Source: Bdellovibrio sp. NC01
GTDB lineage: Bacteria > Bdellovibrionota > Bdellovibrionia > Bdellovibrionales > Bdellovibrionaceae
Assembly: GCF_006874625.1 (NCBI RefSeq)
Contig: NZ_CP030034.1
Location: 2,666,001 to 2,730,000 of the forward strand
Direction: 5' to 3'
Length of the DNA stretch: 64,000 nucleotides
Part shown: positions 19,155-23,538 of the stretch, in pieces
Numbering within the stretch: position 1 is the stretch's first letter
Layout: the number at the start of each line of letters is the position of its first letter
The notes under the pieces: generated by a model
Database searches by the model: none
What the model was told of the DNA's origin: nothing
What the model saw: the letters and a program-made list of their open reading frames with translations, nothing else
Translations under genes and position numbers: made by a program

Positions 19155-19269
19155 CCCTCACAGTGTATGCGACAAGGCAAGTCAAGACAAACGGAGTGTC
19201 AAGGATTGTAGAATCGGAACAAAGATTATACTCTATATTGTGCTTATTCGCATTCTTAGGGAGTCCGTT

Positions 19270-22200
19270 ATGTCCTATACAGTTTCGCTGCAAAGAAATC
19301 CCAACCTTTCGATTCCACAAATCGATCGCAGTTCAAAAAATGAAGTGCTCGAAAGTTTTGGATCGTCATGGTGGACAGGTGTTGCTCCGGAAAAATGTGT
19401 TGGCTTCAATAAAGAAAAAAATTTCTTACAAGCTCTTCCATTAATCAACTTGGACATTTGCACACGCCAAGATGTGATTGATTATTTCAATAACTCTTGG
19501 ACTTTGACGGAAGTTCTTTTTTCTTCATTGAAAAATGAATCGACATACATTCGTCCCCCGTATCACGAACTTCGCCATCCATTGATGTTCTACTACGGTC
19601 ATCCGGCGGTGCTTTATTATAACAAAATGCGCTTAGCAGGTTTGTTCACAGAGCCCGTTGATTTGTTTTTAGAAAAAATTCTTGAAACCGGCGTTGATGA
19701 GATGAGCTGGGATGACATGTCGAAAAACGAGATGGCATGGCCACGTATCAAAGAAGTTCATGCCTATCGCAAAAAAGTCTATGACCACGTTTTGAACGTT
19801 ATTAAAACTCATCCTGATCTTGAACCGGGACCAAAAAGAAATTTGGGACCGTCTTCACCACTGTGGTCTTTATTCATGGGCTTTGAGCACGAAAAGATTC
19901 ACTTTGAAACTTCAAGTGTACTTATCCGCGAATTGCCGTTGGAGCTGGTTGAAACTCCGAAGTACTGGGTGCCGATGCATCCGTCTGCGATGTTGAAAAC
20001 TCCAGTAAAGCCGACACCGGGAAAAGACTATCCAGAAAATCACTGGGTGAAAGTTCCTGGTGGCACTGTTCACTATGGAAAAACTCCTGACGTTCCGTCT
20101 TACGGTTGGGACAACGAATACGGTTCACGCACAAAAACTGTAAAAGATTTTGAAGTCACTGAGCAGCTTATTAGCAACGGCGAATATTATGAGTTCGTTG
20201 CCAGCGGCAGTTACATCAACGACAAGTACTGGGGCCAGGAAGGTTTGCAGTGGAGAAAATTCCGCAACACCAAACGTCCCACGTTCTGGGTTGCACACGG
20301 ACCGGAAGGTCTTCACGACTACAAACTTCGTACGATTTTTGAAATCATTGATATGCCATGGAGCTGGCCTGCGGAAGTGAACTATCACGAAGCGCAAGCT
20401 TATGCTCGCTGGAAACAAGAAAAAGATAATACAAAACTTATCTATCGTTTGATCACAGAGCCAGAACACGTGCGTTTGCGTGATGCGGGGACGGACCCTG
20501 TCTTGCAAAAGCAAGCTTACTCTGATGATGGCGAAGCTTTGCGCGTGATTCCTGCGAATTTTAATTTCCAATATTCGACAGCGACACCTGTGAATTTCTA
20601 TGCCGCAAATAAACTTGGCGTAAAAGACTTATTCGGGAACGTCTGGCAATGGGCTGAAGATCAGTTCAATCCGCTGGATGGTTTTAAAGTTCATCCACTT
20701 TACGACGATTTTTCGACGCCGTGTTTTGATGGCAAACATCAAATGATCTTAGGCGGAAGTTTTATCAGTTGTGGGCACGAAGCTTCAGTGTGGGCACGTT
20801 TCCACTTTAGACCCCACTTCTTTCAACATTCAGGTTTCCGCTTAGCAGCGACTTTGGATGGCAGTGCTGACAATGAATCCACAAAATTAAAACAAAATGG
20901 CGAATACGTTCATCCTCGCCGTCAGAACGTGCGCGATCAAATGCAACAACCTGATTGGTGGAAACATGTTGATCAACCAATGGAATTTGATTCTGTTGAA
21001 TTGAAAAATCTGTGGAACCAAACTGAAGAAGCCATTTTGAACTTTGAAATGAAACGCACTGAAATTTCACCGATGGGTCAAGCTCTTGATCCTGCGACAA
21101 ATGACGTTTCTAAATCGTTCCGTATTCCTTATCAGGCCGTAAAAACATTCCCTGAAAGACCGGATGATTTTGAAAAGCTTTTAAAAACGGTGATTGGCGA
21201 AATGGCGCCAATGGGTCAACAGCCAGGCCATCCTGGTTACATGGCTTACGTTGCCGGAGCTGGCAATGCGATCAGCAACATGGCCCAAGCGATTGCACAA
21301 ACTTTGAATCAGTTCACAGGTCATTATAGCTTGGCTCCGGGTCTTGTGACTTTGGAAGCAGAAGCTTTGCGCTGGATCACAAACATGATCGGTTATCCTG
21401 AACAAAGCGGCGCCTTCTTTACAACAGGCGGCAGTCTTGCGACGTTGTCGGCGTTAAGCATCGCGCGCAAAACGAAAATGCAAGGACATGATTTATCTAA
21501 GGTCCGTTTCTATGCTTCAAACCAAGCTCATCACTGTGCGGGTAAAGCTCTTGGTATTTTGGGTTTCCCTAAAGATGCGTTAAAGTTGATTCCGTCGAAC
21601 AATGAAATGCAAATGGATCTTAAAGCTCTTGAAGCTGCGATTGCGGCTGACAAAGCTTCTGGCATTCAACCATTGTGTGTTATCGGCACAGCTGGCAGTA
21701 CAAACACGGGTGCGATTGATTCTTTGCCAGAAATTTCTGCGATCGCAAAGAAAAACAACATGTGGTTCCACGTCGATGGTGCTTACGGTGGCTTCTTCTT
21801 ATTAACAGAACAAGGCCGTAACAAATTAAAAGGTATCGAGCTTTCTGACTCCGTTGTTCTTGATCCACACAAATCGTTGTCACTTCCTTATGGAACAGGT
21901 TGCGTGCTTGTGCGCGATCGTTCTTTGATGACTTACGATTATCAAGGAGCCCCGTCTTACATGCCGCCTTCACCAGGATTGCATGACCAAGTGGAAGCGC
22001 GACTTGATTTCGCAGACATCACTCCAGAGTTATCACGCGACTTCAGAGGCTTGCGTTTCTGGTTGCCGATCAAAACGATGGGCATCGGTCCCTTCCAATT
22101 GAACTTGGAAGAAAAATTGGAGCTGGCAAAATACTTAGCGACAGAGCTTAAAGCGATTCCATCTTTGACAGTGATTACAGAGCCGCAGCTTTCTATTGTG

Positions 22201-22401
22201 AATTTCAAAATGAAAGACACGACGAAAACGCGTGAACTCTTAACACGCATTAATCAAACGAATAAAATCTTCCTGAGCGCATGTACGTTGAATAACGATG
22301 TCGTGATTCGTGTGTGCTTGCTTGGCTTTAAAACGCACTTTGCGGAAGTCACTGCCCTATTGACTGTGATTCGTTCTGCTTTGAAAGAAATGGGTGCATA
22401 G
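19270..22401 (+). CDS. OvoA-type sulfoxide synthase fused to a PLP decarboxylase
   Basis: From the ATG at 19270 (GGGAG just upstream) the product has 1043 residues. Residues 1-528 match the N-terminal part of OvoA: a DinB-like domain with iron-binding candidates His111 (YYGHPAVLYYN), His207 and His211 (GFEHEKIHFETSSVLIREL), then an FGE-sulfatase domain (NVWQWAEDQ, LGGSFISCGHE, HFFQHSGFRLA). OvoA normally continues into a methyltransferase. Here residues of about 571-1043 are a group II PLP decarboxylase with stacking His754 (NQAHH), Asp836 (HVDGAYGG) and the PLP Lys868 (DPHKSLSLPYGTG). Joining cysteine to histidine C5 as a sulfoxide is the family reaction. The decarboxylation substrate is inferred. 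The class V gene follows directly. Confidence 0.9.
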   Translation: MSYTVSLQRNPNLSIPQIDRSSKNEVLESFGSSWWTGVAPEKCVGFNKEKNFLQALPLINLDICTRQDVIDYFNNSWTLTEVLFSSLKNESTYIRPPYHELRHPLMFYYGHPAVLYYNKMRLAGLFTEPVDLFLEKILETGVDEMSWDDMSKNEMAWPRIKEVHAYRKKVYDHVLNVIKTHPDLEPGPKRNLGPSSPLWSLFMGFEHEKIHFETSSVLIRELPLELVETPKYWVPMHPSAMLKTPVKPTPGKDYPENHWVKVPGGTVHYGKTPDVPSYGWDNEYGSRTKTVKDFEVTEQLISNGEYYEFVASGSYINDKYWGQEGLQWRKFRNTKRPTFWVAHGPEGLHDYKLRTIFEIIDMPWSWPAEVNYHEAQAYARWKQEKDNTKLIYRLITEPEHVRLRDAGTDPVLQKQAYSDDGEALRVIPANFNFQYSTATPVNFYAANKLGVKDLFGNVWQWAEDQFNPLDGFKVHPLYDDFSTPCFDGKHQMILGGSFISCGHEASVWARFHFRPHFFQHSGFRLAATLDGSADNESTKLKQNGEYVHPRRQNVRDQMQQPDWWKHVDQPMEFDSVELKNLWNQTEEAILNFEMKRTEISPMGQALDPATNDVSKSFRIPYQAVKTFPERPDDFEKLLKTVIGEMAPMGQQPGHPGYMAYVAGAGNAISNMAQAIAQTLNQFTGHYSLAPGLVTLEAEALRWITNMIGYPEQSGAFFTTGGSLATLSALSIARKTKMQGHDLSKVRFYASNQAHHCAGKALGILGFPKDALKLIPSNNEMQMDLKALEAAIAADKASGIQPLCVIGTAGSTNTGAIDSLPEISAIAKKNNMWFHVDGAYGGFFLLTEQGRNKLKGIELSDSVVLDPHKSLSLPYGTGCVLVRDRSLMTYDYQGAPSYMPPSPGLHDQVEARLDFADITPELSRDFRGLRFWLPIKTMGIGPFQLNLEEKLELAKYLATELKAIPSLTVITEPQLSIVNFKMKDTTKTRELLTRINQTNKIFLSACTLNNDVVIRVCLLGFKTHFAEVTALLTVIRSALKEMGA

Positions 22402-23538
22402 GTGGCAACTTCAAGACTTGCTGAATTTCAAGAACAGTTTGCTCGCAGAGCCGATTTAACTCATCTGAACAATGCAGGTCTTGCGCCGATTACTTTAGCA
22501 GCTAAAAACAAAGTCGAATATTGGGCTGAACGTTATTATCAAGAAGGTTTTTGGACCGACGCTGATTACATGACCGATGTCTTGTCGGCTCGTCATGCGA
22601 TGGCCGATTTAATCGGCTGCCAACATGATGAGATCGCGTGGTTTCAAAGTGCGGCGGGCGGTATTAATCAATTTGCTTTTGGTATTGGTCTGCAACCCGA
22701 TGATGAAGTTGTGATGTGGGATCAAGAATATTCCAGCATGCTTTATCCTTGGAAAGAAGCTTGCGATCAAAACAAAGCTTTTTTGAAAATCGTCGATTCT
22801 GAAGAAAATTTAAAAACTCCGACTGAAAAATACTTGGCAGCGTTCACGTCTAAAACTCGTGTCGCGGCATTTAGTCTTGTGCAATTCAGCTCTGGCGCAC
22901 GCATGGATACTCAAGCTGTTATTTCTGAATGTAAAAAGCGTGGCATTTTAGTGTTCATTGATATCGCACAAACTCTAGGTCTTCATCCGTGCACAGTGTG
23001 GGCGATGGGTGCTGATGCGGTTGCAGGTGGCAGTCATAAGTGGATGGTTAGCCCCGTTGGTGTTGGCTATTTGGCGATTCGTAAAGAACTTGCGCAAAAA
23101 ATGAAGCCACGAAATATCGGCGCATATACTTATGGGACATGTGACGACCCGTCTGACTTTGCCTGCGAACCAAAAAGAGATGCGACTAAGTTCGAACCTG
23201 GTTCAAAACAAGTTCTAGAGATCACGGCTCTTGGTGCCTCAGCCCGAATCATTAAAGCGGTCGGAGTTGAAACAATCGAAGCCGAGGCCTTACGTTTAGG
23301 CGCGAAACTTCGTGACGGCGTTTATAACAAAGGCCATCAGCTTCTGAATCCATTTGGGCGTGAAGCGATTTCTCCGATGGTAAACTTCCTTCCCGGCAAC
23401 GGCATGTCTTTGCCTGATATGGCAAAGCGTCTGTCAGACCATAAAGTGAACTTTGCTTTGCGTGGTGGTGGCATCCGTCTTTCTACGCACGCCTTTAATA
23501 CTGACAAAGATATCGAAAAAGCGCTGTCGCTTCTTTAA
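22402..23538 (+). CDS. class V PLP enzyme, likely C-S lyase partner
   Basis: This 378-residue fold-type I PLP enzyme of the cysteine desulfurase/EgtE-like class has its PLP lysine at Lys213 (GGSHKWMVSPVGVGYLAI) and the cofactor-binding Asp in FIDIAQTLG. Translation begins at GTG immediately after the stop of the fusion gene, with no gap, so the two are coupled. In ergothioneine and ovothiol synthesis a PLP lyase cleaves the sulfoxide conjugate to release the free thiol, and this gene is placed to do so. It lacks the Cys loop expected of a true cysteine desulfurase. A transaminase activity cannot be excluded. Confidence 0.85.
   Translation: MATSRLAEFQEQFARRADLTHLNNAGLAPITLAAKNKVEYWAERYYQEGFWTDADYMTDVLSARHAMADLIGCQHDEIAWFQSAAGGINQFAFGIGLQPDDEVVMWDQEYSSMLYPWKEACDQNKAFLKIVDSEENLKTPTEKYLAAFTSKTRVAAFSLVQFSSGARMDTQAVISECKKRGILVFIDIAQTLGLHPCTVWAMGADAVAGGSHKWMVSPVGVGYLAIRKELAQKMKPRNIGAYTYGTCDDPSDFACEPKRDATKFEPGSKQVLEITALGASARIIKAVGVETIEAEALRLGAKLRDGVYNKGHQLLNPFGREAISPMVNFLPGNGMSLPDMAKRLSDHKVNFALRGGGIRLSTHAFNTDKDIEKALSLL

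Follow-up and report, generated by a model that had tools for sequence, protein, structure and literature searches.

An OvoA-type sulfoxide synthase fused to a group II decarboxylase in Bdellovibrionota: a candidate two-gene cassette for 5-thiohistamine

Organisation of the locus

The window, that is the whole stretch of DNA that was analysed, comprises 64,000 nucleotides of Bdellovibrio sp. NC01 (NZ_CP030034.1, positions 2,666,001 to 2,730,000). A single open frame of 1043 residues lies where an earlier note, made from the sequence alone, had located it. The motif AGGGAG (19258-19263, + strand), which is likely its ribosome binding site, is found 6 nt before the ATG at 19270, and a second gene begins at the base following the stop codon. 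The features are the following:

19270-22401, + strand: fusion gene, one open frame of 1043 residues
19270-20853, + strand: OvoA-type sulfoxide synthase half, residues 1-528 (TIGR04344, 597 bits; structure 8khq; invariant residues)
20854-20979, + strand: inter-domain linker, residues 529-570 (alignment of fusions)
20980-22398, + strand: group II PLP decarboxylase half, residues 571-1043 (Pyridoxal_deC, 194 bits; structures 4obu, 1js3 and 4e1o)
22402-23538, + strand: class-V PLP enzyme gene, probable C-S lyase (Aminotran_5, 144 bits; directly 3' of the fusion)

The synthase half displays a DinB-like helical part and an FGE-sulfatase fold, and the linker is in frame in all the fusions and conserved in part in their alignment. 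The earlier note had seen no methyltransferase motif in this protein; profile searches with Pfam and NCBIfam agree, since no methyltransferase model, including the NCBIfam model of the OvoC methyltransferase (TIGR04345), matches anywhere in the 1043 residues. A full-length AlphaFold2 model was built with 60 sequences and reached a mean pLDDT of 84.8, the addition of OvoA relatives having raised it from the value of 64 obtained with the fusions alone. Both halves described in the earlier note are recovered in this model: residues 45-541 match the OvoA structure 8khq (Z 43.3, rmsd 1.9, 446 aligned residues) and residues ~667-1043 match PLP decarboxylases (Z 32-37). Upstream of the fusion, the window encodes in a row, between 15859 and 18703 on the + strand, MsrB (SelR), a DsbD-TM/AhpC-TSA/thioredoxin-like fusion and HutD. 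Among the loci examined, this order recurs only in genome G019 and is absent, for instance, from G004.

The OvoA-type synthase half and the distribution of the fusion

The profile TIGR04344 (ovoA_Nterm) recognises residues 59-525 with 597 bits, above its cut-off of 400, while the EgtB model gives 137 bits (cut-off 360) and the SenA model 131 bits, far under its own cut-off. Passing TIGR04344 is insufficient alone to define an OvoA, as short EgtB-IV-like proteins also exceed its cut-off. The nearest solved relative of this half is OvoA_Th2 (8khq), whose structure was determined in the presence of histidine and cysteine. The iron-ligand pattern pointed out in the earlier note is confirmed by alignment with 8khq, where His111, His207 and His211 occupy the iron-ligand positions; these residues are invariant in the 19 aligned fusions.

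In a tree built from 84 N-terminal halves, all the fusions group in a single clade (SH-aLRT 100) whose sister, with a support of 94, is a methyltransferase-bearing OvoA from the same genus (genome G014). Together they are nested in a group where the tested members carry methyltransferase domains (TIGR04345 was confirmed in L048), with the exception of L074, a protein of 530 aa. The EgtB-IV structures fall outside the OvoA group. Ten positions (103, 144-148, 208, 282, 481 and 516) are near-constant in OvoA and different in EgtB-IV, and all of them show the OvoA state in 20/20 fusions. Profile, phylogeny and diagnostic positions together support the assignment of the N-terminal half to the OvoA-type synthases, as the earlier note had proposed. 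The fusion-specific changes in this half are conservative, as in the replacement of Arg209 by Lys, and every OvoA-conserved residue is retained. Residue 209 is situated between the two C-terminal iron-ligand His (motif EHEKIH); Lys occupies it in 20/20 fusions, as opposed to Arg in 27/27 of the near OvoA and 31/32 of the far ones.

These data also bear on the possibility that the locus serves ergothioneine synthesis, with an EgtB-IV-type synthase and an EgtE-like lyase. The EgtB-IV structures (8vih, 8vig) are close relatives that share the sulfoxide synthase fold and a single-polypeptide core with the fusion, and the downstream lyase is weakly EgtE-like. However, the EgtB-IV enzymes are of the ergothioneine type, have no fused decarboxylase and differ at the ten diagnostic positions. 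EgtD is needed for hercynine; it is absent from 15/17 fusion genomes, including the source genome (G000), and in the other two a separate EgtB-like gene adjoins EgtD. The ergothioneine route was rejected on the absence of EgtD in the source genome, the tree placement and the ten OvoA-type positions, and we regard it as very improbable.

Several short sulfoxide synthases (445-513 aa; L140 6633-8964, L141 1741-4473 and L139 2116-3597) have mixed diagnostic residues and branch, in the tree, at positions intermediate between OvoA and EgtB-IV. A class-V PLP enzyme gene follows two of the three, and EgtD is present in two of the three genomes. Besides short EgtB-IV-like proteins, TIGR04344 passes many proteins of ~450 aa in the Obscuribacter/cyanobacterial sample, and annotations as 5-histidylcysteine sulfoxide synthase based on this model may include ergothioneine enzymes.

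Intact fusions were detected at 20 distinct loci, including the window, across the Bdellovibrionota (Bdellovibrio, Pseudobdellovibrio and Bacteriovorax-type genomes). They measure 1010-1073 aa, the others being 56-79% identical to the window protein, and one of these is located on the complete chromosome of Bdellovibrio sp. qaytius (CP025734). Since the same layout occurs at 20 distinct loci, the fusion is due neither to chance nor to misassembly, and the assembly error that the earlier note had envisaged is excluded. In a set of 369 genomes from the Bdellovibrionota, TIGR04344 exceeds its cut-off in 35: 22 matches have a length of 1019-1089 aa, nine of 692-741 aa (the size of methyltransferase-type proteins) and three of 467-516 aa, and one is a contig-end fragment. 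Samples from three other phyla gave no frame of fusion length among their matches, which number 24 in 398 genomes (the phylum to which a Thioploca MAG belongs), 47 in 292 (that of an Obscuribacter MAG) and three in 296 (that of a Bacteroidia MAG).

OvoC is not found over its cut-off in any of the 17 fusion genomes tested, which extends to whole genomes the absence of OvoC seen in the protein; it is over the cut-off in the 3/3 non-fusion OvoA genomes taken as controls. As the fusion clade is nested within methyltransferase-bearing OvoA and OvoC is absent from the fusion genomes, the fusion most likely arose once, the decarboxylase taking the place of OvoC. A comparison of the window with G019 gives 0.11-0.16 non-synonymous changes per site, with saturation of the synonymous sites, for each half of the fusion and for the lyase; judged from such sequence comparisons, the fusion is under purifying selection. 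The divergence of the synthase half, the decarboxylase half and the lyase is parallel (r 0.87-0.91). In the Bacteriovoracaceae MAG G066, the fusion is interrupted by a Tn5-type transposase gene (L075 8990-10306, same site as L148 7183-8499), and the downstream lyase gene is intact.

The decarboxylase half and the adjacent class-V PLP gene

Pyridoxal_deC (PF00282) matches residues 625-982 with 194 bits (gathering cut-off 27), in accordance with the fold announced in the earlier note. The PLP-binding Lys868, Asp836 and His754, named in that note, are invariant in the 19 aligned fusions, and so is Tyr897, contained in the motif [ST]YMPP, which aligns with the catalytic-loop Tyr. We take Tyr897 to be the equivalent of Tyr332 of dopa decarboxylase (DDC) and Tyr334 of histidine decarboxylase (HDC); in the alignment with human HDC, the catalytic Tyr334, included in the motif NPIY, corresponds to Tyr897. 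In the group II decarboxylase fold, the Tyr of the flexible loop protonates the quinonoid, and its loss leads to aldehyde synthases. The invariance of Tyr897 thus favours a decarboxylase over an aldehyde-forming enzyme. An assignment as aldehyde synthase, with Phe914 (motif LDFADI) as the loop-Tyr site, was considered and rejected, human HDC also having a Phe there.

The C-terminal half could still be a fused, OvoB-like C-S lyase or an aldehyde-forming enzyme instead of a decarboxylase, considering that PLP enzymes switch reactions and that a fusion of OvoB with OvoA has been reported in hydrozoans (PMC9103826). Against this, Pyridoxal_deC prevails with its 194 bits over Aminotran_1_2 (25 bits) and Beta_elim_lyase (24 bits), the loop Tyr is invariant and a separate lyase gene is always present, so that this explanation appears improbable. 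These data support the C-terminal half being a group II decarboxylase with a full catalytic set, including the loop Tyr.

The substrate is less sharply indicated. The nearest solved relative is the tryptophan decarboxylase of Ruminococcus gnavus (4obu); DDC (1js3) and HDC (4e1o) are further solved relatives. All share with the C-terminal half the fold, the catalytic Lys, Asp and His and the loop Tyr, at about 25-33% identity, but only the C-terminal half is fused to a sulfoxide synthase. It scores far below the cut-off of every substrate-specific NCBIfam equivalog (PanP, DABA, MfnA and HDC). The position aligned with Ser354 of HDC is a Thr in the window protein and varies (T/M/Y/A) across the fusions; therefore the substrate is not settled by it.

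The product of the gene 22402-23538 belongs to the class-V PLP enzymes (Aminotran_5, 144 bits). Its best NCBIfam matches, SufS (110 bits) and EgtE (TIGR04343, 54.7 bits for a cut-off of 400), are both under cut-off and give it membership of neither family. It shares with these enzymes the fold, the PLP-Lys213 and the carboxylate-binding Arg359, both kept in 19/19 partners, but in the same 19 aligned sequences there is no Cys in the loop that bears the catalytic Cys of SufS. The retention of Lys213 and Arg359 and the absence of this Cys are more in keeping with a C-S lyase than with a cysteine desulfurase. The enzyme is probably a C-S lyase, for which context and residues suggest an EgtE-like role. 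Its family presumably differs from the PLP family of OvoB.

This gene is directly downstream of 20/20 intact fusions and is their only conserved neighbour, the others varying by family (histone deacetylase-like protein, LysR, L,D-transpeptidase, methionyl-tRNA synthetase, glucose dehydrogenase). Because it alone stays adjacent while the other neighbours change, the cassette is composed of two genes, the fusion and the class-V PLP gene. Homologues of the lyase (about 37-38% identity) are also located behind two short sulfoxide synthases of other Bdellovibrionota; the lyase family therefore accompanies sulfoxide synthases more widely.

A predicted pathway to 5-thiohistamine

In the ovothiol route, OvoA forms 5-histidylcysteine sulfoxide, from which OvoB liberates 5-thiohistidine, the substrate methylated by OvoC (PMC12631010). 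The fusion resembles the bifunctional OvoA of structure 8khq in the fold of its N-terminal half, the iron-ligand His, the OvoA-conserved positions and the combination of a synthase with a tailoring domain, whereas this domain is the OvoC methyltransferase in OvoA and a PLP decarboxylase in the fusion. OvoA-OvoC fusions are standard. As OvoC is replaced by the decarboxylase and OvoB by the class-V enzyme, the three-step logic of the ovothiol route would be kept.

From the architecture, the intact catalytic residues, the conservation, the operon partner and the absence of OvoC, all observed, we infer the substrates, the order of the steps and the product. The OvoA-type half would first convert L-histidine, L-cysteine and O2 into 5-histidylcysteine sulfoxide; C-S cleavage by the class-V PLP enzyme would then produce 5-thiohistidine together with pyruvate and ammonia; finally, the decarboxylase half would strip the carboxylate from 5-thiohistidine to yield 5-thiohistamine. 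Because it holds the place that OvoC has in an ordinary OvoA, the decarboxylase half most likely acts on 5-thiohistidine, the same intermediate as OvoC. The earlier note had identified the synthase, the decarboxylase and the replacement of the methyltransferase, all of which the present data support; it had overlooked the class-V PLP gene that follows, which likely encodes the C-S lyase and in whose absence the proposed pathway would lack its C-S cleavage step.

We lean towards considering that the fusion and the next gene form a cassette whose product is a decarboxylated 5-thioimidazole, the simplest candidate being 5-thiohistamine (5-mercaptohistamine). Several observations speak against it: the C-terminal half meets no substrate-specific model and has a tryptophan decarboxylase as its nearest structure, the position of HDC Ser354 varies among T, M, Y and A, and the lyase is far under the EgtE cut-off (54.7 against 400).

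Decarboxylation could alternatively come first, the C-terminal half producing histamine from histidine or acting on the histidyl side of the conjugate, and the decarboxylated molecule being handled next by the synthase and the lyase, with the same end product. According to a review, OvoA can 5-sulfanylate histamine (PMC9103826), and the fused halves would permit a direct hand-over. This order is unlikely, as the N-terminal half, with all its OvoA-conserved residues kept, shows no sign of a switch to a carboxylate-free substrate and the analogy with OvoC places the fused domain at the last step. The sulfoxide conjugate has two amino-acid ends and the group II family includes cysteine-sulfinate decarboxylase, whose structures 2jis and 6zek also match the C-terminal half; the decarboxylase might thus act on the cysteinyl side, or make another conjugate, and give a cysteamine-type or other thioether with no free thiol. 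This would leave the conserved class-V lyase without its cysteinyl substrate, unless its role differs, and we consider it improbable.

Returning to decarboxylation of 5-thiohistidine as the last step, we give about even chances to the broader proposal that Bdellovibrionota make 5-thiohistamine as an undescribed low-molecular-weight thiol via a dedicated two-gene cassette where a decarboxylase replaces the methyltransferase. If true, it would represent a third branch from 5-thiohistidine, beside ovothiol and N-acetyl-5-thiohistidine. A 2025 paper states that, besides its N-acetyltransferase, no enzymes are known that make non-ovothiol derivatives of 5-thiohistidine (PMC12631010). This acetyltransferase, 5THNAT of Proteiniphilum, likewise departs from the ovothiol route at 5-thiohistidine, but it is a separate enzyme beside an ordinary OvoA and performs no decarboxylation (PMC12631010). 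The earlier note knew of no enzyme with the present layout, and neither a fusion of OvoA with a decarboxylase nor the biosynthesis of thiohistamine was found described in the literature covered, which lies outside subscription journals and preprints; the main text of a 2024 paper on the comparative genomics of Bdellovibrionota mentions neither ovothiol nor sulfoxide synthases. The novelty would reside in the tailoring domain, which is new for this known synthase, and in the new product that follows as a prediction: a further 5-thiohistidine derivative and redox-active histamine analogue in predatory bacteria. Small and sharply defined, the two-gene cassette provides a means of studying the cellular role of 5-thiohistidines.

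Concerning stand-alone enzymes, the gene context of the nearest decarboxylases, from haloarchaea and Streptomyces, is uninformative. In Actinophytocola xanthii (L072 7824-14411), a stand-alone group II decarboxylase is located 2.7 kb downstream of a methyltransferase-type OvoA. This proximity was treated as due to chance, with nothing identifiable between the two genes and no such arrangement in the related Streptomyces loci examined; the stand-alone enzyme is 35% identical to the fused decarboxylase.
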